A DNA stretch of 39,515 bases, taken from NCBI GenBank assembly GCA_017387505.1, contig JAFOFB010000007.1, forward strand, positions 1-39,515. Reading direction: 5' to 3'. The translations under genes were made by a program, and so were the position numbers. This document shows, piece after piece, positions 27,884 to 39,515 of the stretch; the stretch's first letter is position 1; each line of letters begins with the position of its first letter. The notes beneath the pieces are model-generated. The model saw only the letters and a list, made by a program, of their open reading frames with translations, was not told where the DNA came from and ran no database searches. Origin of the DNA: Methanocorpusculum sp. (GTDB lineage: Archaea > Halobacteriota > Methanomicrobia > Methanomicrobiales > Methanocorpusculaceae).

Positions 27884-28119
27884 TGATACATCACAAATCA
27901 TGAATCACAAATCACCATGAAATATCAGGAAAAAAAGATACGTGGGGTCTGCGTCTTCCTTTCTTCTCGAAAGGGACGAGACAGACTCCGTGTGTCTTCC
28001 TTGTTGTATAGTTTAGCCTTCAAGTTTATTTAAGAATATTTGTAGGAAAAATGCAAAAATCACCGGCACATCAAAAAAAATCACCAGAAAATGGGTGATT
28101 TATGATTTATGATTCATGA
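27884..28119. promoter_or_regulatory. Inverted heptad arrays upstream of RHH genes
   Basis: At 27884-27914 the plus strand carries four tandem 7-bp units of the form aATCAYa (CATCACA, AATCATG, AATCACA, AATCACC). At 28090-28119 the minus strand carries the matching set (CATCATG, AATCATA, AATCATA, AATCACC). Two more AAATCACC sites lie near 28055 and 28078. The unit fits 5'-WATCACW-3', the heptad bound by the RHH omega repressor of Gram-positive plasmids. Three RHH genes start at 28145. The 395-base gap around it otherwise holds AT-rich sequence and one hairpin. Confidence 0.55.
27944..27989. ncRNA. Strong 18-bp-stem hairpin between heptad arrays
   Basis: GGGGTCTG, CGTC and CCTTTC pair in order with GAAAGG, GACG and CAGACTCC around a TTCTC loop, with only small bulges (TT and AGA). 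A stem of this length outside any gene suggests a structured RNA, a replication or recombination hairpin, or an attenuator. It does not match a tRNA or other RNA that I recognise. Confidence 0.45.
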
Positions 28120-28144
28120 TGTGTCATTGAAAAAACACGCTCAC

Positions 28145-28600
28145 ATGTCAACCAAAACAAAAAATGGGCTCATGTGCTCGTTTAGATTAGCGCAAAAAGA
28201 TGTCGAAAAATTCGACCGCAGAATAAAGCGGGCAGGGTTTAACTCTCGAAGCGACTTCTTCTCAGCGCTTGTCAGAATCGTCATAAGCGAACCAAAGCAG
28301 AACCCGAAGGACACGGCTTCCGCCTGGATTTTAAACCAGATGCCTCCTCTTTCAGAAGAAAAAATAGAGCAGGCAATCGAAGACGCGATTCGAAAACATC
28401 TGTTTGCAGTTGTCGCGATTCATGGGGCTGATGTAGCCTTCGAGCGTACATGGATGGACTTGCGGACAATCGTCCACGAAAAAACCGACATCTGGACGAC
28501 TGCAAGCGAACTTCGATGCGCATACATACGCTTCGAAGATAAGTACCGCCGCGAACTTTGCGAACACCAGAACAAGATACTTGCAGGAGAGATGCCATGA
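28145..28600 (+). CDS. Ribbon-helix-helix protein with C-terminal extension
   Basis: A 151-residue protein from ATG 28145 (MSTKTKNGLM); a frame starting at 28109 would run through the heptad array. Residues ~10-50 fit a ribbon-helix-helix DNA-binding domain: strand LMCSFRLAQ, helix KDVEKFDRRIKRAG, turn FNS, helix RSDFFSALVRIV. The remaining ~100 residues are a helical, charged domain without a recognised family (SEEKIEQAIEDAIRKHLFAV). It may act as dimer or tetramer repressor on the heptad repeats just upstream. Its stop overlaps the next ATG. Confidence 0.65.
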   Translation: MSTKTKNGLMCSFRLAQKDVEKFDRRIKRAGFNSRSDFFSALVRIVISEPKQNPKDTASAWILNQMPPLSEEKIEQAIEDAIRKHLFAVVAIHGADVAFERTWMDLRTIVHEKTDIWTTASELRCAYIRFEDKYRRELCEHQNKILAGEMP

Positions 28601-28812
28601 GAAGCGCAAAATTGCCGCCTGATTCAAGGCTGTACAGTCAGGTCACTCTCACTGTCTCCAAAGAGGAACTTGAGACCATAGACCGGCTTGTTTCTGATTT
28701 CGGGTTCAAGAATCGCGGAGACCTGCAAAGAACAGCACTTGAGACATACACAAAGACCAAAATCTTCCGCCCAAGGGAGGCAAACCCCGGCAGAAGAGTG
28801 AGGAAGGTATGA
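28597..28812 (+). CDS. Ribbon-helix-helix protein, second of three
   Basis: A 71-residue protein from ATG 28597, which overlaps the previous stop and follows GCAGGAGAGATGCC. Residues ~13-55 form the RHH core: SQVTLTVSKEELETIDRLVS, turn FGFKNR, helix GDLQRTALETYTKT. The tail is strongly basic (PREANPGRRVRKV). The end of the core, TKIFRPRE, closely matches GTKIFRER in the third gene, so these two are tandem paralogues. Overlapping starts show co-translation. Confidence 0.7.
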   Translation: MRSAKLPPDSRLYSQVTLTVSKEELETIDRLVSDFGFKNRGDLQRTALETYTKTKIFRPREANPGRRVRKV

Positions 28813-29000
28813 ACAACAAACACTTCGACAAGAAAACAAGACTGTCCTGTTCCATCTCGCTCGCTGTAACCGCTGACGAGTTGGAAGCTGTAAACAGATG
28901 TTGTGAAAGGCTCGGACTTTCAAGAACCGACCTTGTGAGATCCTCAATCGAGGCTTTTGTCGGCACAAAAATCTTCAGAGAAAGGACATGCGAAAAATGA
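28809..29000 (+). CDS. Ribbon-helix-helix protein, third of three
   Basis: A 63-residue protein with strand RLSCSISLAV, helix TADELEAVNRCCERLG, turn LSR, helix TDLVRSSIEAFVGTKIF: a complete RHH domain and little else. It overlaps the second gene by four bases (ATGA). As three different RHH proteins are made together, they could form mixed dimers. It most resembles the second gene. Confidence 0.7.
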   Translation: MNNKHFDKKTRLSCSISLAVTADELEAVNRCCERLGLSRTDLVRSSIEAFVGTKIFRERTCEK

Positions 29001-29089
29001 AACGAAAAATACAGGCTGACTCACAGAATTGCACCTCCGTAATCAGCCGTAATAAAGTCGTTGTTAAACGAGATAACTGTATCGCATAA
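28997..29089 (+). CDS. 30-residue basic ORF
   Basis: A frame whose ATG overlaps the stop of the third RHH gene (ATGA), continuing the coupling pattern of this operon. It encodes 30 residues, starting MKRKIQADSQN, rich in Lys and Arg with two cysteines. No fold is recognised. Only the overlap supports it. Confidence 0.35.
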   Translation: MKRKIQADSQNCTSVISRNKVVVKRDNCIA

Positions 29090-29136
29090 AATCAAACGCC
29101 CATTATCATAGCAAAAGAGGACACGGGGGTTATTTT

Positions 29137-29403
29137 ATGACTGAGTACAAGAATCCCGCAGGAGATAAGGACTTACCTTTTAAGAGGGACAGCCTTGTCG
29201 AGAGCCTGGAAAAGCAGGAAGCAATGCTCAGCTTCATCACTCAGTCCTTCTACAGTGACCCAAAGTCCGTTGAGGAACTCAAAGCTACTGTGTTAATCGC
29301 CTCGGATAATTCATCCTCGACACCTAATGCGGATAGATGGTTCATCAAAGGAGCTTTTGCTCTTCTCAAATACCTCTCGAAAGGTAAGCAGGAGGTTATA
29401 TGA
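29137..29403 (+). CDS. Small hypothetical protein of mobile module
   Basis: An 88-residue protein, mostly helical and charged (SLVESLEKQEAMLSFITQSF, FIKGAFALLKYLSKGKQEVI). A purine-rich GAGGACACGGGGG lies upstream of the ATG. The size and composition resemble viral or plasmid accessory proteins, but I recognise no family. Its stop overlaps the HNH gene start (ATGATG). Confidence 0.6.
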   Translation: MTEYKNPAGDKDLPFKRDSLVESLEKQEAMLSFITQSFYSDPKSVEELKATVLIASDNSSSTPNADRWFIKGAFALLKYLSKGKQEVI

Positions 29404-30020
29404 TGGTAATTCTTTGCAGTGCAGCAGATTTCTATATCATGGAAAAAATCCGCTCCGGCGAGTGGGTTCCATCACTCGACACAGGACAGGTTTACTCAAC
29501 GCGGAAAAAAGGATTTCTCACACCAAGAAAAACACGCGGCTATTCAATGATAAGTTATGTGCGGCTCTCTCACATCATCTGGATTGCGGCAAACGGAGCA
29601 ATCCCGTATGGGATGCAGATAGACCACATAAACGGAGACAGAGAAGACGACAGACTCTGTAACCTGAGACTTGTAAGCCGTTCAGAAAACATCATGCTTA
29701 GTACGGCAACACTGACTTATTCTCAGGCAGAAGAAATCCGACGAAAATATACAGAAGGCAATTCAATTCGCAAACTCGCAAAAGAATATAGTGTTGAAAA
29801 GACCGTTATTTGGAGAGTTATCAACAACAAAACATACACCAAGCCGATTGACACAAGCGGAGTTTCCAAGGAAACCAGAAAGGAACTTCTGGAATACTAC
29901 AAGAACGGCGGAAAAATTGACACCGCAAGAAAAGTATTCAAGGTACAGCAGGCAGTAATCCGGCAGGTTTTGGAAGAAGAATTGAGCAGAGAAGCAAAAG
30001 AACAGGAGATAGAATCATGA
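29400..30020 (+). CDS. HNH endonuclease with helix-turn-helix tail
   Basis: A 206-residue protein. Residues ~55-100 hold an HNH_3-type nuclease site: the first His in LSHIIW and the core QIDHINGDREDDRLCNLRLVS, where DH...N...N matches the metal-binding pattern. Residues ~105-145 form a helix-turn-helix (EEIRRKYTEGNSIRKLAKEY, VEKTVIWRVINN), and a second similar unit may follow (KIDTARKVFKVQQAVIRQVL). This is the layout of phage-type homing endonucleases. GGAGG precedes the start. It is a hallmark of viral or plasmid DNA. Confidence 0.8.
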   Translation: MMVILCSAADFYIMEKIRSGEWVPSLDTGQVYSTRKKGFLTPRKTRGYSMISYVRLSHIIWIAANGAIPYGMQIDHINGDREDDRLCNLRLVSRSENIMLSTATLTYSQAEEIRRKYTEGNSIRKLAKEYSVEKTVIWRVINNKTYTKPIDTSGVSKETRKELLEYYKNGGKIDTARKVFKVQQAVIRQVLEEELSREAKEQEIES

Positions 30021-30505
30021 AAACTCCTCAGGAATATTTAGACATCATACAGGAAGCACACCCGTGTCCTGTTGAATACGGGTTCGAGCGTGCCGCATGG
30101 CTTTACGAAACAAGAGAAGCTCTCAGATGGGCTTTGAATTTTGTCGAGCTTGAGTTTAAGCATCAGGTTGCAGACATACAGGATAGAGGGCTTACTTCTG
30201 AGAAGTACAATCTCTGCGGAAGGTTCAGGAACTATACGCGGGTGAATCTTGAAGCCCTGCATCAGTACAATGTTGAGCTTTTCGATTCTCTGGTGCATGT
30301 CAAGGCAACTGACGCCGAGAAGATTATTGGAAGACGTGTTCTTTATCTTGAGGCGAGGGATGTTCTTGGTGATTTGGATATCCGGCAGTATCAGACGGTA
30401 AATGCTACTGAGTTGTCGAAGGTTGTTCCGTCTCATGTTTATGATAGATTGACTGAGAAGGAGGAGCGTTTGATGGATTATGTTATCGAGGAGGTTGCTG
30501 TATGA
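30017..30505 (+). CDS. Hypothetical helical protein of mobile module
   Basis: A 162-residue acidic protein, probably all-helical (WLYETREALRWALNFVELEF; VNLEALHQYNVELFDSLVHV; TEKEERLMDYVIEEVAV). No family is recognised. Its ATG overlaps the HNH stop after AGGAGATAGAATC, and its stop overlaps the next small gene, so it is part of the same coupled operon. Confidence 0.6.
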   Translation: MKTPQEYLDIIQEAHPCPVEYGFERAAWLYETREALRWALNFVELEFKHQVADIQDRGLTSEKYNLCGRFRNYTRVNLEALHQYNVELFDSLVHVKATDAEKIIGRRVLYLEARDVLGDLDIRQYQTVNATELSKVVPSHVYDRLTEKEERLMDYVIEEVAV

Positions 30506-30669
30506 AGTTCTTTATGCCGCAGATGCTTCGCTGTCTTTCCTGCCGTTTTGGCAGCTGCGGGTTTACGGTTTTTGAGAATGTGGATAATTACTATCTGGTG
30601 TGCGAGAAGCAGATTAGACTGCCTGAGAAGAAATGCAAATTCTATATGCCGCAGGAGGTTTTCTTATGA
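30502..30669 (+). CDS. 55-residue Cys-rich small protein
   Basis: A small frame linked by four-base overlaps at both ends and preceded by GAGGAGGTTGCTGT. It starts MKFFMPQMLRCLSCRFG and contains CLSC plus further cysteines at about 19, 34 and 45 (SCGF, LVCEK, KKCKFYMP), which could form a small zinc or Fe-S knuckle. Such Cys-rich mini-proteins are common in archaeal viruses and plasmids. Function unknown. Confidence 0.6.
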   Translation: MKFFMPQMLRCLSCRFGSCGFTVFENVDNYYLVCEKQIRLPEKKCKFYMPQEVFL

Positions 30670-30845
30670 TTCCTTCTTGGAGGTCTCATGGGGAGCTTTC
30701 TGACCGTCACAAGCTTGCTGTGCTCGTTATGGAAGAAGGTTCTGTCCCTGCTATCGCCCGCAGGGTTGGTTGCTCTAAGGCTTCTGTGAAAAGTGCTTTA
30801 ATTTTCCATGGATTGGCGGAGGGTGATGTGTTAAAGAAGCTCTGA
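30666..30845 (+). CDS. 59-residue helix-turn-helix protein
   Basis: I choose ATG 30666 (MIPSWRSHGEL) over an upstream in-frame start at 30633 because GCAGGAGG sits ideally before it and it overlaps the preceding stop. The protein has one helix-turn-helix: HKLAVLVMEEGSVPAIARRV-GCSKASVKSALIFHG, like the short transposase/phage type that reads a binding site with the GCSKASVKSAL helix. It ends the tightly coupled operon; a 110-base gap with T-rich sequence follows. Confidence 0.65.
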   Translation: MIPSWRSHGELSDRHKLAVLVMEEGSVPAIARRVGCSKASVKSALIFHGLAEGDVLKKL

Positions 30846-30955
30846 GTGTTGTTTTTCATAATGGGGATTTTCTACACTCCGCCCCTCTCTCTTTTTATTT
30901 TTTGTTAATATTTTATTCACAGAGTCTTTTTCTATTCTTGCGTTGAAGATAATGT

Positions 30956-31597
30956 ATGGAAAGGTACGTTTCCGAGCCGTATTCGCCGTATGATTATGTT
31001 CGGCAGAACGCTCCGTATCCTGCTTATAATTCGTGGTGTGAGTTGACGGATGCTGAGCGTGATGCTGTTTTGTCGTTTCAGGATTTGGGAAGCAGGCAGG
31101 ATTCGTGGACTGTGGAAGCTCCTGACCCTGTGCATGTAAACTGCTCTATTGTTAATTCGTATCTGCGGTTTCCTGAATTTCGTGATTTGATGAGTGGTGA
31201 TGATGTATGTCAGTGTGAGGAGTTAATTTCGTTTCTGGATTCTGCTGTATCGAAGAGTGTTCTGCCTGAGGGATTGAATGTTATTCGAGGGCTTGCTGAT
31301 TCGCGGTGGATTTCCGAGTTCTGTGTTGGAGACACATATGTTGAAGATGGTTATGGAAGTTATTCTCTTTCTGTAGATGCAGCTTTACGTTATGCGCGGG
31401 TGAATGATGATGGAAAGATGGTGTTTCTTGCCCGTATTCTTGAAAAAGGAGAGAGGGTATTGTATTTGGGATGTAAGGAGGAGGAGATGCTTGTTGAACG
31501 TGGTTGTGAATATGTGATTAAGGAGATTAGTCCGGTGGATAAGGGGATTCTCTCTCCTGACACTGAGGCAATTGTTTATATCCTTCGGAGGATATAA
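30956..31597 (+). CDS. Probable ADP-ribosyltransferase (R-S-E class)
   Basis: A 213-residue protein without signal peptide. The C-terminal half shows the three conserved elements of toxin-type mono-ADP-ribosyltransferases in order and spacing: Arg111 in LNVIRGLADS, Ser-x-Ser 137-139 in GSYSLSVDAALRYA, and E-x-E at 175-177 in KEEEMLVERGCEYVI. The E-x-E form usually modifies arginine, while Q-x-E modifies Asn or Gln. The N-terminal ~100 residues are a separate acidic helical part (LTDAERDAVLSFQDLG). It could be a viral host-takeover enzyme or a toxin. It has its own upstream T- and AT-rich gap and is followed by a 51-residue ORF. Confidence 0.65.
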   Translation: MERYVSEPYSPYDYVRQNAPYPAYNSWCELTDAERDAVLSFQDLGSRQDSWTVEAPDPVHVNCSIVNSYLRFPEFRDLMSGDDVCQCEELISFLDSAVSKSVLPEGLNVIRGLADSRWISEFCVGDTYVEDGYGSYSLSVDAALRYARVNDDGKMVFLARILEKGERVLYLGCKEEEMLVERGCEYVIKEISPVDKGILSPDTEAIVYILRRI

Positions 31598-31605
31598 GAT
31601 AAGTT

Positions 31606-31761
31606 ATGTATCCAACAACTATGGAGTATTGCCGATATACAGGACATCGGGAATTAACGGAGGAGGACAGGCGTGATGCACGCAGGATACGTGAGGGTTT
31701 CGAGCGTTGTTTCCTTCCGCCTGGTGTGAAGCTTACTCCGCGTTCTGAGATGCGGGACTGA
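31606..31761 (+). CDS. 51-residue charged ORF after the ADP-ribosyltransferase
   Basis: A frame starting MYPTTMEYCRYTGHRELTEE, eight bases after the transferase stop, with GGAGGATATAAGATAAGTT upstream containing GGAGG about 13 bases from the ATG. The middle is a strongly charged helix rich in Arg, Asp and Glu (DRRDARRIREGFERC). It has no recognised family. Position suggests a partner, regulator or antidote of the enzyme, but that is only inference. Confidence 0.45.
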   Translation: MYPTTMEYCRYTGHRELTEEDRRDARRIREGFERCFLPPGVKLTPRSEMRD

Positions 31762-31839
31762 ATATTTTCTATACTTTTTTTTGTGTGTTTGTGATGTGAT
31801 TTGCCGTTTGATTTATATGTGGGATTTGTTTTCGTGAAA

Positions 31840-31895
31840 GGCGAGAGCCGAAGGCTCAAGCCATGAGCAAACCGAAGGTTTGCGAAAGTGCGTTT
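31840..31895. repeat. Copy of AAGGCTCAAGCCATGAGC repeat
   Basis: GCCGAAGGCTCAAGCC-ATGAGC-AAACCGAAGGTTTGCG carries two small palindromes. Related sequence occurs at 1-45, 38570-38650 and 39285-39345, marking a dispersed intergenic repeat family. Confidence 0.5.
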
Positions 31896-32025
31896 TGGCT
31901 TTTTGCGGGGTTTGTTTTTCGTTTATTCTTTTGTATGGGCTTGGATTTTTATGATTTTTTGAGGTGTGGGGCACTTTCGCACCGCGCGGTATGGGGTTTA
32001 TATAGGTCTATGTCGTATTTGTATG

Positions 32026-32135
32026 TGTAGCCGGGGTGAAGCTACCCGGTTGCAGTCTTATGTCTTACCGGGCATATGTTTGGTGTATAGGGCTAAGCGG
32101 GGTCTTTCTGAATCCGTCCCGCGAAAAACTAACAC
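32026..32135 (+). ncRNA. Candidate structured RNA downstream of a TATA box
   Basis: A perfect TTTATATA (31997-32004) lies about 25 bases upstream. The following ~110 bases contain no frame but two clear stems: CCCGGT/ACCGGG (32045-32072) and GCGGG/CCCGC (32097-32122), plus a TAGC/GCTA pair at the start. An ACA trinucleotide at 32132 follows the last stem by nine bases, so an H/ACA-type guide RNA is one possibility. It is not a tRNA. The rest of 31762-32560 is repeats. Confidence 0.35.
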
Positions 32136-32220
32136 CCTTTGCTAAGAGGGGAGAGGGAACAAGGAAATTGCTCTCTCCTCCTTAGTTCTCCTTTGATGTT
32201 TTTGTATTTTGTATTTATTC

Positions 32221-32500
32221 TACTGCTCCGCCTAGCCGCTACGCTGACGCGGCGGCTCGAGACGGCGGAGAGAGACTTAGGTGTTTGGGTTCGGGTGTTT
32301 CTTTGACTCTCCGCAGCGTCAGCGAGGATTCCCCGCCGAAAAAGCCGCCGCGTCAGCGATAGCAAGTCGCTTTAGCGGCTTGCGTGCGTCCCGGCGGGTT
32401 GTTGATTGTTTTTTTTTGTGTTATTTGACTGCCCCGCCTGACTGCTCGCTGACGCGGCAGTCCGAGACGGCGGGGAGAGACTTAGGTGTTTGGGATTCTG
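32221..32500. repeat. Pair of GC-rich direct repeats with palindromic units
   Basis: Two ~70-base copies: 32221-32290 and 32431-32500, each with GCTGACGCGGC-n-GAGACGGCGG-GAGAGACTTAGGTGTTTGGG. Between them is a palindromic unit beginning CCCGCCGAAAAAGC and ending CGGCGGG; a unit with the same ends lies at 38174-38268 on the other side of the defence island. No coding capacity. Confidence 0.65.
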
Positions 32501-32574
32501 GTGCAGAGCCGTTTCGACTACAAAAAATCGCATAGCATATTTCGCCCACTGACGCGGGCTTCATATGCCTGCTT

Positions 32575-32817
32575 CCGTGTGCTCCTTCGCCTTCGGTCTT
32601 CGACCTGCAGGCTCGGCGCACCCGTCTTTTTTGCTTAACGTCTCCACTACCCATATACATGGTTGGATGGGGCGGGGCACAGGCGTTTACCCGCGAGAGG
32701 ATAACCTCGTCGGTCTGTTCGCCTTCGGCTCTCATCCCGCCAAGGATATCGTCTCGCGGTTCACACGCCCGCGTTGTAAGCCCGCCGAGTTTCCCGGGCA
32801 GGCTTCGGAGTTATATT
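32575..32817 (+). repeat. Conserved structured leader of GxxExxY gene, left copy
   Basis: About 240 bases closely similar, in inverted orientation, to 37826-38085. Predicted stems: GTGTGC/GCGCAC (32577-32582 with 32616-32621), GGCGT...CCGCGAGA (32682-32698) with TCTCGCGG...ACGCC (32752-32769), and AAGCCCGCC with GGGCAGGCTT (32778-32805). The last hairpin ends at the CGGAG ribosome binding site of the gene. Frames running through it differ between the two copies, so conservation is at the nucleic-acid level. Confidence 0.6.
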
Positions 32818-33195
32818 ATGAAAATGTTAGATGACAACTCGGATTTACTGAAAGTGCTTCGCTGCGCTTTTGAGGTTTATGCAACTCTGAAATACGGTTA
32901 TCTGGAATCGGTGTATGAAGCAGCTCTGGAATACGAGCTTTTGCAGGCGGGTTTTTCTGTTTCCCGTCAGGTTCGGATTCCTGTTTTCTACAAGGGTGTT
33001 GAGCTGAGGAAGGATTTCTATGCGGATATGGTTGTGAATGACTGCATTCTTTTAGAGTTAAAGGCTGTATCAACAATCAATCAGGCTCACGAAAAACAGC
33101 TTCAAAGTTATATGAAATCTACTGGGATTAAGGAGGGGATGCTTCTGAACTTCGGGCATGTTAGGAGCTTACAGTGGAGAAGTTATTCTCCATGA
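32818..33195 (+). CDS. GxxExxY protein (PD-(D/E)XK-like), left copy
   Basis: A 125-residue protein from ATG 32818 (MKMLDDNSDLL), with CGGAG nine bases upstream; longer frames run through the non-coding leader. The family signature is GYLESVYEAAL (G-x-x-E-x-x-Y). The core FYADMVVNDCILLELKAV has the D...E-x-K arrangement of PD-(D/E)XK nucleases. The C-terminal half pairs with HEKQLQSYMKSTGIKEGMLLNFG. It is the same length as, and about half identical to, the protein at 37448-37825. Biochemical role is unknown for the family; nuclease activity is inferred from the fold. Confidence 0.85.
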   Translation: MKMLDDNSDLLKVLRCAFEVYATLKYGYLESVYEAALEYELLQAGFSVSRQVRIPVFYKGVELRKDFYADMVVNDCILLELKAVSTINQAHEKQLQSYMKSTGIKEGMLLNFGHVRSLQWRSYSP

Positions 33196-33196
33196 T

Positions 33197-33625
33197 TCAA
33201 TCCCATTTTACTACGCAGGGATTAGGTCTTGCGGTGAATGTGGTATTACATTCTGCACAGGTTATGGAAAATGGAATATCCATTTCCAAGGGGTTACATT
33301 TTTGCAGTTCCGTTCCGCAGGATTTACAGATGAACTTGGGGGTGTATGTTTCCCCGTCTTTTTCGAGGGTGAATGAGGTGTACTGTTCTAATGTTTTGCA
33401 TTTGGGACAGAAGCAGATTTGGTATTCGTAGTCTTTTGGTTTCCATCCATTTTCCATTAGGGATATACAGGCTTCCCAGATTTCTTTTGGTACTTCTTCT
33501 TTGAGTTCTGGCTTTTCTCCAAAGAATAGTCTCTCAAATGTGTAATGATAGAGAATACCCACTCCTTCATGAAGGTTTATTTTTGATTTGCAGTTCGGAC
33601 ATTTAAAGCTGTATCCGTGTCCCAT
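33197..33625 (-). CDS. Zinc-ribbon protein
   Basis: A 142-residue protein with four pairs of cysteines: CPNCKS near the start, CFCPKCK in the middle, CKSCG, and CAECN at the end, enough for two zinc ribbons. Between them is a helix (VPKEIWEACISLMENGWKP). There is no recognised family beyond the ribbons. It ends one base after the left GxxExxY gene, converging with it, and is divergent from the MmeI-like gene with a 124-base gap. It may be island cargo. Confidence 0.7.
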   Translation of the reverse strand: MGHGYSFKCPNCKSKINLHEGVGILYHYTFERLFFGEKPELKEEVPKEIWEACISLMENGWKPKDYEYQICFCPKCKTLEQYTSFTLEKDGETYTPKFICKSCGTELQKCNPLEMDIPFSITCAECNTTFTARPNPCVVKWD

Positions 33626-33749
33626 GAGTAATGGTATTTAGGAGTGGAGAAGGGATAAGGGTTTGCGAGGGAGCGGACATGTGCTAAACTATTCAGAAGT
33701 CATCTTAATCTATATTGGAAGATAATAGTATCTTACTCACAGGGAAAAT

Positions 33750-36497
33750 ATGGCAACAGTAAAACAGAAATTAGCGGCAGAAAAGTTTGCAAAAGATTGG
33801 GAAGGAAAAGGATATGAGCGTGGGCAGAGCCAGACATTCTGGCTGTCTCTTTTGAACAAGGTTTTTGGTATCGAAGAGCCTGACAAGTTCATTTCTTTTG
33901 AAGATAAGGTTAGTCTCAGTCACGCGAGTTTTATTGATGCAAGAATCCCCTCTACAAAAGTTATTATTGAGCAGAAAAGCCTTGGAAAAGATTTACGCAA
34001 GCCGATTCGTCAATCAGACGGTTCGATGCTGACACCTTTAGGACAGGCTATCCGCTACAACATGAGCCTGCCTTTTTCTCAGCATTCAAGGTGGGTTGTT
34101 CTGTCTAATTTTTCAGAGTTCCATGTTTACGATTTGGAGCATCCTGAGAAGAAAGAGCCGGAGGTCATTCTGCTTAAGAACTTAGGAAAGGAGTATTCCC
34201 GCTTACAGTTCCTTGTGGATTCTGAAAACGACCGAGTGTCTAAGGAAGAGGATATCTCTTTACAGGCAGGAGAGCTCGTGGGTAAAATTTATGATGCTAT
34301 TTTGAAGCAGTATCATAATCCAAAAGACCCGCATTCTCTTAAAAGTCTGAATATGCTTTGTGTGCGGCTTGTGTTTTGTATGTATGCGGAGGATGCAGGT
34401 ATTTTTCCGTATGCTTCACAGTTCACTGATTATCTTAAAGCATATCGCGCTGAGGATGCCCGCGAGGCTCTGATTAATCTGTTCAAGGTTTTAGATACTA
34501 AGATTGAGGAGAGAAGTCCGTATCTGAAAGATTCTTTGAAGGATTTCCCGTATGTGAACGGCGGTCTGTTTGAGGATGAGGAGATTGAGATTCCGATGTT
34601 TACTGAGGATATTATGACCCTCATCTTACAGAATGCAAGCTCTGATTTTGATTGGTCTGGTATTAATCCAACTATTTTTGGAGCGGTGTTCGAGAGTACG
34701 CTTAATCAGGAGACGCGGCGTTCTAATGGAATGCACTATACATCTATCGAGAATATCCACAAGGTTATCGACCCTCTGTTTTTGGATAGTTTAAAGGAAG
34801 AGGCAGAGCGTATCAGAAATGTCTCGAACAGGGAAACAAGAAAGAAGTACTTTGATGATTTAAGAAAGAAACTCGGCGGGCTTCGCTTCTTAGATCCTGC
34901 GTGCGGTTCTGGTAATTTCCTGACCGAGACTTATCTCTCGCTTCGCCGTCTGGAAAATGAGATTCTGAAAGAGACCTTTGCAGGTCAGATGGTTTTTGAT
35001 GTGGACGGGGTTATCAATGTTCCCATCGACCAATTCTATGGTATTGAGCTAAACGACTTTGCGGTAAATGTCGCAAAGACGGCTCTCTGGATTGCTGAGT
35101 TCCAGATGATGAAGGAGACGGAAAAGATTGTGCAGGTGGACTTGGATTTCCTGCCGCTTAAGTCATACACGAATATTGTGGAGGGCAATGCCCTGCGGAT
35201 TGATTGGGAAGATGTTGTGCCGAAGGATAAACTGAGTTATATCTTAGGAAATCCACCGTTTGTTGGTTTTTCCCACATGAATGCTGAACAGAAAGCAGAC
35301 ATGCAAGAACTTTTCCCCGGTGTGAAAAATCTGGATTTTGTTTGCGGGTGGTATAAAAAGGCATCAGATTTCTCAGTTGGTATGGAGATAGAGACAGCAT
35401 TCGTGTCGACAAATTCTATTGTACAGGGTGAGACAGTTAGTCGTTTCTGGGCGTTCCTTCCAGATGATATTATCAACTTTGCATATCGTAGTTTTATTTG
35501 GGAAAGTGAAGCATCACATGCCGCACAGGTTCATTGTGTGATTATTGGATTCTCTAAAAAAGAACGCTCGTTAAAATTTATCTTTGATGGGGAAAAGAAA
35601 ACTGTAGCACAAAATATCAACCGGTATTTGTTTGACGCTCCAAATGTTCTTGTTATGAGCAGGGCAAAACCGTTATGTGATGTTCCAAAAATGGTTTATG
35701 GAAACAAGCCCGCAGATGGTGGTCATCTAATTATTGAGAAAGAGGACTATGAAGACTTCATAACTAGAGAACCACAGGCTCAAAAATATATCAAGCCTCT
35801 TCTTGGAGCGTCTGAATATTTACATGGGAAGAAACGGTGGTGTCTGTGGCTGGTTGGTGCATCGCCTGCTGAGTTGAAGAAGTGCCCCTTAGTTTATGAG
35901 AGAGTACAACGCTGTAAAGAGACACGAGAACAGAGTATCGCTGCTGCTATCCGAAAGTTTGCAGAGACACCAACTCTCTTTGCACAGCGAACTCAGCCTG
36001 TAGGAAAAGCATCTGTAATTATTCCACGCCATTCTTCAGAGACAAGAAAGTATGTTCCATTCGGATTTATTGGTCCTGAAATCATCGTTAATGATGCAGT
36101 ACAAATTCTCCCAGATGCGTCACTTTATCATTTTGGTGTTATCATATCTAACATTCATATGGCATGGATGCGAGCGATTTGCGGTAGAATAAAAAGTGAT
36201 TACCGATACTCCAAAGATGTCGTCTACAACAACTTCCCCTTCCCCACTCCCACCGAAGAGCAGAAATCCGCCATCGAGAAAACCGCTCAGGGCATTTTAG
36301 ACGCACGGGCACTTTATCCAGACAACAGTTTAGCAGACTTATACGACCCGCTGACTATGCCGCCGGAACTCAGGAAGGCTCACGAGGCAAACGACAGGGC
36401 TGTCGAGAAGGCGTATGGTCGCAAATTCGCGGATGAGGCAGAAATAGTCGCATATCTGATGCAGGAGTATCAGCGGCTTGTTGGGGAGAAGAAGTAA
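33750..36497 (+). CDS. MmeI-like type IIL restriction-modification enzyme
   Basis: A 915-residue single-chain restriction-modification enzyme resembling MmeI along its length. Residues 1-~160 hold the nuclease with D63...E74-x-K76 (FIDARIPSTKVIIEQK). The helical connector follows. The gamma-type adenine methyltransferase has motif I DPACGSGNF at 382-390 and motif IV NPPF at 501-504. The specificity domain is about 620-810 (GHLIIEKEDYEDFI; RRHSSETRKYVPFGF). The C-terminus ends in SLADLYDPLTMPPELRKAH. All catalytic motifs are intact. It methylates one strand of its site and cuts about 20 bp away, by family knowledge. An AATCTATATTGG TATA-like box lies ~40 bases upstream. Confidence 0.93.
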   Translation: MATVKQKLAAEKFAKDWEGKGYERGQSQTFWLSLLNKVFGIEEPDKFISFEDKVSLSHASFIDARIPSTKVIIEQKSLGKDLRKPIRQSDGSMLTPLGQAIRYNMSLPFSQHSRWVVLSNFSEFHVYDLEHPEKKEPEVILLKNLGKEYSRLQFLVDSENDRVSKEEDISLQAGELVGKIYDAILKQYHNPKDPHSLKSLNMLCVRLVFCMYAEDAGIFPYASQFTDYLKAYRAEDAREALINLFKVLDTKIEERSPYLKDSLKDFPYVNGGLFEDEEIEIPMFTEDIMTLILQNASSDFDWSGINPTIFGAVFESTLNQETRRSNGMHYTSIENIHKVIDPLFLDSLKEEAERIRNVSNRETRKKYFDDLRKKLGGLRFLDPACGSGNFLTETYLSLRRLENEILKETFAGQMVFDVDGVINVPIDQFYGIELNDFAVNVAKTALWIAEFQMMKETEKIVQVDLDFLPLKSYTNIVEGNALRIDWEDVVPKDKLSYILGNPPFVGFSHMNAEQKADMQELFPGVKNLDFVCGWYKKASDFSVGMEIETAFVSTNSIVQGETVSRFWAFLPDDIINFAYRSFIWESEASHAAQVHCVIIGFSKKERSLKFIFDGEKKTVAQNINRYLFDAPNVLVMSRAKPLCDVPKMVYGNKPADGGHLIIEKEDYEDFITREPQAQKYIKPLLGASEYLHGKKRWCLWLVGASPAELKKCPLVYERVQRCKETREQSIAAAIRKFAETPTLFAQRTQPVGKASVIIPRHSSETRKYVPFGFIGPEIIVNDAVQILPDASLYHFGVIISNIHMAWMRAICGRIKSDYRYSKDVVYNNFPFPTPTEEQKSAIEKTAQGILDARALYPDNSLADLYDPLTMPPELRKAHEANDRAVEKAYGRKFADEAEIVAYLMQEYQRLVGEKK

Positions 36498-36526
36498 ATC
36501 TCCCAATTCCTTGTCTGCTATTTCTA

Positions 36527-37417
36527 TTATTCAAACTCAATATTTTTGACTATGAGAATGGTATGAATTACACAAAATAATTGTACACAGTGACACTTTT
36601 CAACAATCTGGTTACTTCTCCCATGAACAAACCAATGTCGGTTGATAATATCCGGTTCGTCTGATGAGAAATCGAATGTATCATAAAATACTTCTATAAA
36701 ATCCATTAATGCATAGAAGAGAAAAGCATATGAGAAATCATCCTCTAGATTTTTCATCTCTATTTGTTCTTTAAATGAATCCTTAATTTTCTTGAATCCT
36801 GACTTTCCAGTATCAAAGAGCAGAAATCTTTCTACAAGAGGGATTAAAACATGTGCACATGGTGCATAAAGACCTGCATTATATGCCTGGATTCCCTCTC
36901 TAATTTTCTGCAGTTCACTTTCATCTGAAATTATGGATAATATCTCTTGACTCAGTCTATCAAAGTATTCACTGTCATCTGAAAAGTACTTGTCAAGTAT
37001 GTATTTGTTGAAATCTGAATTAAACACATCATCAGCACTAATCGGAATAAACAGAGGAATAACCCATCCATACTTACCAATCTGTGCTCGTGGTGACAGG
37101 ATAGAAATAGAGGCAGTAATCTCACTTTTCCACTGAGAGGTAATACTTTGAATTAGGGATATAGCAGGATTCGTATATAGCTGCTTAAATCTATTTGATA
37201 TCTCAGCAATTTCTTCCCCAAGAGGAAATTCAAACATAACTGGACTATAAACTCTGTTTGATAACTCTCTTAGATTTTCTTTTATTTTTTCTAAAGGGGC
37301 GATGTACTCTAACAGCGGATTTGTAAATTGATTGGTTATGTTCCCCTGCTCATTCTTCTGGTTATGCTCATCATCCATATGTATGATAGACAATAGGACG
37401 AGAGAGAGATTAAGCAT
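36527..37417 (-). CDS. HEPN-like protein with RHxxxH motif
   Basis: A 296-residue protein (Met14 at 37378, MDDEHNQKNE, is an alternative start). The C-terminal ~130 residues are helical: EGIQAYNAGLYAPCAHVLIPLVERFLL, then a helical block, then IINRHWFVHGRSNQIVEKC. Arg260-x4-His265 fits the R-x4-6-H catalytic motif of HEPN ribonucleases, and the Y-x-x-A-x...-l-x-P-l-v-E-r pattern is shared with abortive-infection-like families. The N-terminal half is unrecognised. It converges on the MmeI-like gene with a 29-base gap, in the same island. RNase activity is inference. Confidence 0.6.
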   Translation of the reverse strand: MLNLSLVLLSIIHMDDEHNQKNEQGNITNQFTNPLLEYIAPLEKIKENLRELSNRVYSPVMFEFPLGEEIAEISNRFKQLYTNPAISLIQSITSQWKSEITASISILSPRAQIGKYGWVIPLFIPISADDVFNSDFNKYILDKYFSDDSEYFDRLSQEILSIISDESELQKIREGIQAYNAGLYAPCAHVLIPLVERFLLFDTGKSGFKKIKDSFKEQIEMKNLEDDFSYAFLFYALMDFIEVFYDTFDFSSDEPDIINRHWFVHGRSNQIVEKCHCVQLFCVIHTILIVKNIEFE

Positions 37418-37447
37418 TTGTGAAATTGAGATTTTTCTGTTGAAAAA

Positions 37448-37825
37448 TCAAAGAGTGACTAACCGCCACTCCAACCTCCTCAAATTTCCAAAGTTCACTA
37501 AAAGCCCGCTCTCCATCCCTGTTGTTTTCAGATAACTCTCAACCTGCCGCTCGTGAATCTTTGCGAGGTTCGACACTGCCTTCAACTCTACAAGAACCGC
37601 ATCATTCACAATCATATCCGCGACAAACGGCGCATCCAGAAGCTCGCCCTTGTAATACACGGGAAGTTTCACCTGACGGCGAACCGCAAAGCCTTCTGCC
37701 GTCAGTTCCTTTTCCAACGCCTTCTCATACACCGATTCCAGATAACCGGGCTTCAAGTGATTGTACACCGCAAGGGCGCATCCGACAATTCTGTACATAT
37801 CCGAGTTAACATCTAACTTATTCAT
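37448..37825 (-). CDS. GxxExxY protein (PD-(D/E)XK-like), right copy
   Basis: A 125-residue protein from ATG 37825 (MNKLDVNSDMY), preceded by CGGAG at the right distance. Signature GYLESVYEKAL and core FVADMIVNDAVLVELKAV are conserved, and the end HERQVESYLKTTGMESGLLVNFG aligns without gaps to the left copy. The two genes face each other across the 4.25-kb island. Protein divergence is clear, so the duplication is not recent or the copies came independently. The larger frame to 37903 runs through the leader and is unlikely to be used. Confidence 0.85.
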   Translation of the reverse strand: MNKLDVNSDMYRIVGCALAVYNHLKPGYLESVYEKALEKELTAEGFAVRRQVKLPVYYKGELLDAPFVADMIVNDAVLVELKAVSNLAKIHERQVESYLKTTGMESGLLVNFGNLRRLEWRLVTL

Positions 37826-38085
37826 GGTTACACTCCGAAGCCAACCGGGCAACCCGGCGGGCTTACACCGGGGGCGTGTAAACCGCGAGACGATATTGCT
37901 CACGGGATGAGAGCGAGCAAAGCGAGCGAACAGACCGGGGGCATTATCCTCTCGCGGGTGAACGCCTGTGCCCCGCCCATTTTTTGTATATTAAGGAGGG
38001 CGTCAAAAAAAAGACGGACGCGCCGAGCATGCAGGTGTGAAGAGGCGATTAGCCGATGAACACCGAAGGCGAAGGAGCGGCTCGG
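37826..38085 (-). repeat. Conserved structured leader of GxxExxY gene, right copy
   Basis: Inverted counterpart of 32575-32817. Shared blocks, read on the minus strand, include CTCCTTCGCCTTCGG, GGGCGGGGCACAGGCGTT, ACCCGCGAGAGGATAA, CTCTCATCCCG and ATCGTCTCGCGGTTTACACG. Stems: GCTCGG/CCGAGC (38080-38085 with 38023-38028), TCTCGCGG/CCGCGAGA (37950-37957 with 37883-37890), and CCGGG/CCCGG inside AAGCC/GGCTT next to the start codon. Confidence 0.6.
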
Positions 38086-38099
38086 ATTTTTTTAGCCCG

Positions 38100-38690
38100 A
38101 CGGAAACACCACTAAAAGAGCATCAACCATTTTGTCTATCTTAAAAAAAGAATCATCACAAAAAATCTGATTGCCCGCCGAAAAAGCTGCGGCGATTGGC
38201 GAGGGAGCGAAGCGACTAAGCCAATAGCACGGCGATTAGACGTGCGTCAGCCAAGCGGCTCGGCGGGAACTCCTAAACCAACACCAGAACAGGCGCATAA
38301 ATCAAGCAAAAACCGAAAGCGAAGGAGCGGACGGAAGCAGTCATACGAAGCCCGCCGCGACATGCGAGAGGCGCGAAGAGACTCGAAGCTAAAGCACGAC
38401 GGAACGGCGTGCGAGTGCGTAGCGGGCAGGCGGAGCAGTACTATAAGAAAAAAGAAAACCCAATAATCTTTACACCAAAGAGCCTATAGTGTCAAAAAAC
38501 CAATTATTGAGTAGAGAGAGGGGGCAGGAAAACCAAACCCCCTCGCACGTCTTTCGCAAGCCCTTTGGTCTTGCCCACGGCTTGAGCCACTTCGTGCCTC
38601 TCGCCTTCAGCCGTGCTCAAGGCTTGAGTCACCTTCGGTGCCTCTCGCCCCTCTAACCTCTTTTTCTGCCCCGTCTCGGGAACTATTACA
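38100..38690. repeat. Repeat-rich gene-free stretch
   Basis: No supported gene. It holds a palindromic unit (38174-38268) starting CCCGCCGAAAAAGC and ending CGGCGGG, like the one at 32332-32398; GC-rich sequence to 38450; and a tandem repeat in which GGCTTGAGYCACYTTCGKTGC occurs at about 38580 and 38622. The leader repeat at 38472-38530 is listed separately. Confidence 0.5.
38472..38530 (+). promoter_or_regulatory. Leader repeat copy 1 upstream of acidic protein gene
   Basis: ACACCAAAGAGCCTATAGTG followed by AAACCAATTATTGAGTAGAG and AGAGGGGGCAG. The same sequence with few changes occurs at 39430-39496. It contains AT-rich TATA-like segments (CAATTATTGAG) and lies about 160 bases upstream of the gene at 38691, so it is a probable promoter or transcript start region. 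Confidence 0.5.
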
Positions 38691-39179
38691 ATGGCTGACT
38701 TTACAAAAACTGCAATTAACCAGAATACAAAAAGAGAGTACGTCTCTCCTATTCCATCCCTTGACGCCTTCGAAAGCGTAATTAACGCATTCAAAAACGA
38801 CACCACAATGGGATTCACCAAAAAGGAACTGACCGCTGAGACCTACAAGACAAAGATTGTTTACTTCGATGCAAAAGGAGATGAGAAGGCATATGTGAAT
38901 GTCTATGCAGGTGACAAGACATCTCTTGAAGACGGCACTTCTCTTCTTAGAGGAACCGAAGCCGCAGAAACTTTCGCAGGTGTCGGAGGTTCTGGCTCTG
39001 TCGAAGACAAAGAAGACAATTGGACTGCAAAGTTCTCCTGCGTCAACAAAGTTGACGACAAAGAAGACGCCTTCACCGTCACCATCGGCAAAGACTACAT
39101 GCTTGTCACAGGCTTCTCCTATGACGCAACCATCGAGAAGATAGAGACTTGGGCTGACTCTCAGGCAAATCTCGCATAA
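38691..39179 (+). CDS. Acidic protein of unknown function
   Basis: A 162-residue acidic protein starting MADFTKTAINQNTKREY. It has no signal peptide or membrane segment. The middle is Gly/Ser/Glu/Asp-rich (AAETFAGVGGSGSVEDKEDN), followed by strand-like sequence (AKFSCVNKVDDKEDAFTVTI, YMLVTGFSYDATIEKIETWA), suggesting a beta-sandwich. The codon use is smooth and strongly biased as in well-expressed genes, and a strong terminator follows. I recognise no family. A repeated leader at the window edge suggests a second copy downstream. Confidence 0.65.
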   Translation: MADFTKTAINQNTKREYVSPIPSLDAFESVINAFKNDTTMGFTKKELTAETYKTKIVYFDAKGDEKAYVNVYAGDKTSLEDGTSLLRGTEAAETFAGVGGSGSVEDKEDNWTAKFSCVNKVDDKEDAFTVTIGKDYMLVTGFSYDATIEKIETWADSQANLA

Positions 39180-39213
39180 GCAGAAGGAAGATTCCTTCTG
39201 CTTTCTTTTTTTT
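39179..39213 (+). terminator. Strong terminator after acidic protein gene
   Basis: AGCAGAAGGAA and TTCCTTCTGCT form an 11-bp stem with a very short loop, followed by TTCTTTTTTTT. It overlaps the stop codon. This is the clearest hairpin-plus-T-tract in the window. Confidence 0.75.
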
Positions 39214-39229
39214 CACTCTTCTATTACGC

Positions 39230-39405
39230 GAGCGCCGGAAGCGCGAGTCGAGCGTTCCGCCGGACGTTGGCGAATGGCGAGAGCATGCTCGAGCCTTGAA
39301 CATGGCTGAAAGACATGCGATGCCACGAACAAGCCAGAGGCTTGTGAGAGTCCGGGTGAACGGAACGCGATTCGCCAAGATTCGCGCCGATTCGCGGTTT
39401 TACTT
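39230..39405. repeat. Palindromic element near right edge
   Basis: CGTTCCG-CCGGAC (39253-39265) pairs with GTCCGG-n5-CGGAACG (39350-39367). The right flank CGATTCGCCAAGATTCGCG resembles the right arm of the 3043-3174 palindrome, and the centre carries CATGCTCGAGCC and AACAAGCC-AGAGGCTTGTGA repeats like those at 1-45. It is a composite of the window's dispersed repeats with no gene. Confidence 0.55.
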
Positions 39406-39429
39406 TACCAAATAAAGCCAAAGCAAATC

Positions 39430-39496
39430 TCAAAATCCTTACACCAAAGAGCCTATAATCCCATAAAACCAATTATTAAGTAGAGAGAGGGGGCAG
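39430..39496 (+). promoter_or_regulatory. Leader repeat copy 2 at window edge
   Basis: ACACCAAAGAGCCTATAATC followed by AAACCAATTATTAAGTAGAG and AGAGGGGGCAGA, nearly the same as 38472-38530. By analogy a gene should begin roughly 160 bases further on, outside the window. Confidence 0.5.
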
Positions 39497-39515
39497 AAAT
39501 AAGACACTCTGCAAA

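Follow-up and report, generated by a model that had tools for sequence, protein, structure and literature searches.

The window considered here, that is, the whole 39,515-bp stretch of DNA that was analyzed, is contig C4 (1–39515) of a Methanocorpusculum metagenome-assembled genome (MAG; 1.43 Mb in 24 contigs, 83.5% complete; G000 below), and the subject is an island in it that is bounded at both ends by genes of the GxxExxY family. Because the related genomes are goat and water-deer MAGs (G018 and G002, apparently RGIG2143 and RGIG1678, from goat; G023, apparently RGIG8706, from water deer; G009 is apparently M. parvum SIG11), we infer a gut origin for the window genome. GxxExxY gene A (32818–33195, + strand) and gene B (37448–37825, − strand), each encoding 125 amino acids, are convergent and enclose ~4.25 kb (33196–37447), as the initial annotation had reported; both are clear members of the family, with its motif residues present (TIGR04256, 128.6 and 133.2 bits against a cut-off of 35; PF13366, PDDEXK_3), and they were assigned to classes A and B by similarity and a tree. 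The upstream segment said to be common to both genes is indeed shared and structured, as judged by alignment and covariation: the A leader core (32671–32817, +) contains a main hairpin at 32691–32759 followed by GGAG and the ATG, and the B leader core (37826–37977, −) a main hairpin at 37883–37957; the former was delimited in a 27-copy covariation alignment and scores 167.9 bits against covariance model R1 (itself built partly from this core), and the latter by alignment and covariance model. The two arms match as inverted repeats at 70.6% identity over 589 bp; their genes, however, are not copies of a single repeat: they represent classes that have diverged, and an island usually combines an A gene with a B gene.

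Farther out, reading of the sequence reveals a palindrome at each end. That of the A end (32432–32475, +; CCCCGCC ... GGCGGGG) is accompanied by other GC-rich hairpins beyond the leader and has counterparts at other A ends, and that of the B end (38174–38267, −; CCCGCC ... GGCGGGCAATC) carries a nested insertion and occurs in uninterrupted form at other B and C ends. Three genes make up the cargo. An MmeI-like type IIG restriction-modification enzyme of 915 amino acids (33750–36497, +) has all five MmeI Pfam domains and a PADLOC REase_MTase_IIG match of 1151 bits, so the earlier assignment is sound. The 142-amino-acid protein encoded at 33197–33625 (−), a similar protein to which adjoins MmeI in G002 C48, has several CxxC pairs, and its zinc-ribbon matches are weak and below cut-off (best E 0.0029). 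The label 'HEPN-like' is not supported for the 296-amino-acid protein (36527–37417, −), for which neither Pfam (E 1) nor PADLOC (E 0.01) gave a match.

As judged by comparison of orthologous sites, islands of this kind are present in some genomes and absent from others, at many sites, and their cargo is replaced. One site holds HsdMSR in G000 C22 and MmeI in G009 C13; the flanks are 90–95% identical, and homology passes through the A arm to end 3 bases beyond the stop codon. A likely second such site is that of G009 C31 and G018 C13, where the left flank is 88% identical over 3.4 kb and the G018 contig ends before the right flank. The same arm can also carry different cargo: the window A arm is 97.3% identical over 766 bp to an arm in MAG RGIG9419 that precedes other genes, and this homology ends 2 bases after the stop codon (33197), so that the small hairpin and stop codon at 33175–33197 (+) are taken as the inner boundary of the arm. 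A DpnI cassette occupies three sites with different neighbors; in two of these islands, G009 C14 and G002 C37, the B gene and cargo are 96.1% identical over 2,034 bp, compared with 82% for the A arm and 84.4% for the metG region of both genomes. In many arm copies, including the window at 33175–33197, a small hairpin with T's after it is formed by the gene's final codons, and the coding end thus overlaps a terminator-like signal.

At three sites the island is absent from a relative. At glnA, the cleanest of the three, G002 has ~22 bp where G000 has 8.7 kb; at the alaS-ligase site G002 has ~110 bp against 3.7 kb; and at metG G010 has ~330 bp of other sequence instead. Remnants also occur: at G000 C13, whose left flank is 88% identical over 3.1 kb to that of the G018 C7 island (this G018 contig stops within the right arm), all that is left is a D-side leader, joined at a palindrome, and G000 C14 starts with the end of an A gene, then ~300 bp, then a B outer arm without the B gene. 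For the window's own site no empty or alternative form was found in the relatives searched; its flanks resemble those of C22 in its own genome (83–90%, lower further left), like a second copy of the site. Of 155 within-class arm comparisons, 139 show homology that ends close to the stop codon (−30 to +10); it stops short of −30 in 3, ends at +11 to +60 in 5 and extends past +60 in 8, among which are those with shared DpnI and MmeI cargo. Because of these breakpoint positions, the arms, present at many sites, would supply the homology for recombination in which the old cargo gives way to that of a newly arrived cassette or of a sister one. We lean, with some reserve, toward modular two-arm cargo islands whose cargo is exchanged and moved through the arms, the process probably being recombination promoted by the nucleases that the arms encode.

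The arms recur beyond chance expectation. With an 808-bp arm as query against 41 genomes (25 of the genus, including its own, and 16 of other genera), the arm is present in 5/25 and 0/16, respectively; G000 itself has 13 leader places (297-bp query) and 18 GxxExxY protein places. With 3 distant paralogues set aside, 46 places of arm-type genes were listed in loci from the five genomes, and 34 of them form 17 neighboring pairs (4 in G000, 3 in G002, 5 in G009, 3 in G018 and 2 in G023), where 'pair' covers incomplete genes, several partners being cut by contig ends and the C22 partner being a remnant with 31 residues matched. The 12 unpaired places comprise 7 cut by a contig end, 1 lying 1.3 kb from one, 2 decayed fragments and 2 intact singles; beyond the 46, further fragments cut by contig ends lie in G002 C55 and G023 C110. 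Two more pairs, from contigs of the separate MAG RGIG9419, bring the count to 19. RGIG9419 is a yak MAG labelled Bacteroidaceae, and its two island contigs (L166, L177) are probably Methanocorpusculum contamination of the bin. Leaders of this family thus occur in pairs and near variable cargo, and the islands of the family are not fixed in place.

All 19 pairs are convergent, for which the chance under random orientation is 0.25^19 = 3.6e-12. By our assignment 15 pairs are A+B, 1 is A with a divergent C-like gene (G000 C5), 1 is A+D and 2 are C+D; these classes follow similarity and a tree that supports the A clade (97/99) and, less well, the B (94/98) and C (93/88) clades but does not resolve the D genes. 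If only BLAST scores against the two proteins of the window are used, the gene of G000 C5 goes narrowly to A (174 vs 168 bits), and in G018 C7 and G023 C155 both the C and the D gene go to B, which would give three same-class pairs; in the tree, all of these genes lie outside the A clade, and the C genes are separate from B. When the 38 genes as classed were matched at random, at least 15 A+B pairs arose in 2/200,000 trials, although selection against identical inverted repeats could also produce such an excess.

The pairing bears directly on a different reading, in which each hairpin–GxxExxY unit is an independent selfish element, similar to an insertion sequence (IS) or a homing element, two inverted copies of which trap the DNA between them, the composite being moved by an unknown enzyme, perhaps in trans. 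The units are multicopy with inner and outer hairpins of their own, two intact singletons exist, and related hairpins precede five distant GxxExxY genes, all of which suit such elements; independent insertion, however, predicts tandem, divergent and same-class pairs, and no transposase scored above cut-off among the 48 island proteins scanned with Pfam (small open reading frames were outside the scan). We regard this reading as unlikely. The same scan bears out the statement that no transposase is visible; below cut-off, the 142-amino-acid protein gave Zn_ribbon_IS1595 at E 0.11. Of the proposal that the unit is selfish or recombination-active, the multiple copies, convergent pairs and cargo that relatives lack or have in another form at orthologous sites stand, and mobilization by the unit itself is a suggestion that goes beyond them. 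As a separate observation, family f10 genomes (e.g. G208, G227, G293) each contain many short or broken GxxExxY fragments, like a decaying repeat family, and in G018 C7 (L188 7970–15886) a distant GxxExxY gene (PF13366) with a weak hairpin match upstream adjoins type I HsdR, HsdS and HsdM, near a gene for a 162-amino-acid protein described below.

The leader had been described as structured, which holds, though it behaves as a DNA hairpin rather than an RNA leader. A pattern search found 39 leader cores in the loci, of which 27 were aligned; the others were 10 that carried inserts, were cut or lacked a gene, and 2 that start like an included one (G002 C37 A and G002 C48 A). In the 32-pair structure that we drew, 94.1% of cells are paired, and 128 cells are changed on both sides, compared with 41.7 in shuffles and 2–12 in slid controls. 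The main hairpin has 577 Watson-Crick, 1 G-U and 16 mismatched cells out of 594, and the full structure 801, 12 and 51 out of 864, whereas signal recognition particle (SRP) RNA from 21/25 genus genomes has 1,443, 390 and 15 out of 1,848; the SRP structure is one predicted from its own alignment while that of the leader is ours, and the two alignments are not equally divergent (mean identity 0.84 vs 0.69). A structure predicted for the leader itself gives 714 Watson-Crick, 2 G-U and 13 mismatched cells. Changed cells are two-sided vs one-sided in 125 vs 1 cases for the main hairpin and 85 vs 132 for SRP, and further pair types run 23 to 1 (Watson-Crick to G-U) against 43 to 24 (Fisher p 0.0027), a count that leans less on relatedness than the cell count. 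The near absence of G-U pairs, unlike the SRP RNA of the genus, therefore points to folding and pairing at the DNA level. For the strongest stem two forms are seen, CCGCGAGA/TCTCGCGG and CCCAAGGA/TCCTTGGG, and since each occurs with both classes (A genes 8 and 4, B genes 7 and 3), some exchange between classes is suggested.

The covariance model places this hairpin at 42 positions (E ≤1.5e-18) in the same 5/25 genomes, 40 of them directly before a GxxExxY gene or fragment and the other two at the C13 scar and at a contig end; weaker matches precede the five distant GxxExxY genes mentioned above. Rfam gave no match at either leader, its 2 matches in window 28000–39515 at E up to 1 both lying elsewhere. 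A hairpin of the same type, again a weaker match, also precedes an open reading frame that is not GxxExxY (L029 4350–4420; G000 C6 ~88,850).

These counts weigh on the idea that the leader is a regulatory RNA for GxxExxY, the latter being itself a defence or control gene, and that ordinary defence islands are exchanged by host recombination. Its attractions are the position of the hairpin before the start codon, the conserved GGAG, a TATA-like stretch upstream that is a putative promoter, cargo composed mostly of restriction genes, and the G-U pairs that occur in the two outer helices of the full structure. A structured RNA should nevertheless covary through G-U pairs as the RNA of the genus does, and the single such cell of the main hairpin and its almost exclusively two-sided changes do not conform to this; lipoprotein-like and surface proteins are also among the cargo, and convergent A+B pairing is left unexplained. 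We consider this idea improbable. Least probable of all, though close behind, are palindromes that serve as folded single-strand recombination sites, as integron attC does, worked in trans by a tyrosine recombinase: the imperfect hairpins are symmetric with nearly Watson-Crick-only covariation, and by our reading the halves of two CCCGCC palindromes, which stand in direct orientation in G018 C7, meet at the G000 C13 scar, but this scar is single, no cassette arrays were seen, and there is no integrase among the 48 island proteins scanned (an enzyme acting in trans from elsewhere in the genome was not searched for).

The exchange of cargo through nuclease-bearing arms, which we prefer, gains from the properties of the GxxExxY protein. 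Residues G27, E30, D70, E80, K82, Q94 and Y98 are kept in 32/32 proteins of at least 118 amino acids, and the median ratio of nonsynonymous to synonymous substitution rates (dN/dS) is 0.11 for A and 0.16 for B. A structure model of the class A protein (predicted local distance difference test score, pLDDT, 93.1) has as its top Foldseek match SSO0001, which we take to be Cas4. The PD-(D/E)XK fold, by Foldseek and VIA matches, and the invariant D, ExK and QxxxY residues are both present; the protein thus resembles Cas4 and lambda exonuclease with its catalytic residues intact and is a predicted nuclease, the placement in the RecB/Cas4 branch of PD-(D/E)XK nucleases not being certain. A literature search, outside which most subscription journals fall, found no published role for the GxxExxY/PDDEXK_3 family. 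GxxExxY has been reported where a cas4 gene was expected (PMC8934634).

As to the claim of a defence island, restriction-type cargo is favored (14/19 pairs) but not exclusive. By Pfam and PADLOC, it comprises type I systems (G000 C5, G000 C22, G018 C13), MmeI (the window, G002 C48, G009 C13), DpnI/DpnD (by Pfam in G000 C6 alone, and by identity in G002 C37 and G009 C14), C5-methylases (G009 C5; G018 C11, with a type II enzyme; RGIG9419, with a MutH-domain protein), an HSDR_N-domain protein (G018 C7) and GmrSD (G023 C155). The other 5/19 pairs carry lipoprotein-like genes, by our reading of the signal sequence (G002 C58, G009 C31, RGIG9419 c61708), a repeat surface protein (G023 C137) and a zinc-ribbon/TPR/AAA cluster (G009 C25) whose AAA protein matches PADLOC IetA at E 2.7e-33. 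The islands favor defence genes, yet are not limited to them.

Each arm of ~0.8 kb combines outer palindromes, a long imperfect DNA hairpin, an inward-reading GxxExxY gene and often a small hairpin at the stop codon. In the mechanism that we propose, the nuclease may start or resect recombination by working on broken ends or on the hairpin of its arm; that GxxExxY drives the exchange through the hairpin is suggested by fold, selection and position only. Two diverged arms might be used because the ends are of two types, or because inverted repeats that are identical would be unstable. A bolder form of this proposal, in which the islands are a transposase-free archaeal cargo vehicle with two diverged Cas4-like nucleases, each working on the hairpin of its own end, and only unlike arms (A+B, C+D) capture, swap and re-site defence and surface genes, is rather doubtful.

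Several observations weigh against the proposal. Recombination by the host could by itself exchange cargo between repeats, with GxxExxY playing no part. No target-site duplication was found at the glnA, alaS and metG sites, where intergenic divergence is high, and no fixed outer end among the arms compared. Because the arms are mosaic and many are cut off where a contig ends, misassembly of MAGs could affect single cases. The two intact singles (G018 C3, G002 C17) share one orthologous site and have no partner in the stretches read. For the leader, further pair types in the 32-pair structure number 28, not above shuffles (29.0), so that this measure gives the structure no support, and covariation counts sequences rather than independent events; the nearest hairpin is of the same class for 18/22 A or B hairpins, and exchange between classes is therefore limited. 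The case as a whole is one of sequence comparison and structure prediction.

The islands appear to work like a composite, cargo-swapping element, and within them the tests for transposon, integron and casposon all fail (trans-acting enzymes elsewhere were not searched for). As in composite transposons and IS-linked movement of restriction-modification genes (PMC3031569), repeated units bracket or accompany such cargo; here, however, the only gene of the units is GxxExxY, a Cas4-like nuclease and not a transposase, the ends are mostly of different classes and no target duplication is seen. Integrons, found also in Archaea (PMC9668308), likewise combine folded DNA hairpins with exchangeable cargo, and attC sites fold (PMC11641012), whereas these islands have nuclease genes at both ends, a single cargo block per pair in place of a cassette array, and no integrase among the island proteins scanned (whole genomes were not searched). 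No Cas1 or TnsB-type Pfam match that would indicate a casposon or Tn7-like element occurs in the island proteins scanned. A 2010 paper cited in PMC10609329 deals, by its title, with mobile restriction-modification cassettes, and no published description of these arms was found in the literature search described above. If the proposal is correct, it would provide a function for a nuclease family on which almost no literature was found, a concrete system for how archaeal defence genes move when no transposase is evident, and, in convergent GxxExxY pairs with hairpins, a hallmark for finding defence cargo without known defence genes; the near-total absence of G-U pairs offers a simple way of telling DNA hairpins from structured RNAs.

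Some neighbors of the window island have relatives in or beside others. An ADP-ribosyltransferase-like protein (PF03496, E 1.1e-5; 30956–31597) adjoins the island, and the G018 C13 island has a relative among its cargo. To the left an HNH endonuclease gene (PF13392; 29400–30020), with a borderline HTH_Tnp_IS630 match (21.8 bits, cut-off 21.3), has relatives that flank the G000 C22 and G009 C13 islands. An 80-bp direct repeat, 85% identical, lies at 38451–38530 and 39420–39499, upstream of the gene for the 162-amino-acid protein (38691–39179), relatives of which occur in 17/25 genus genomes and at 8 places in the window's own genome.

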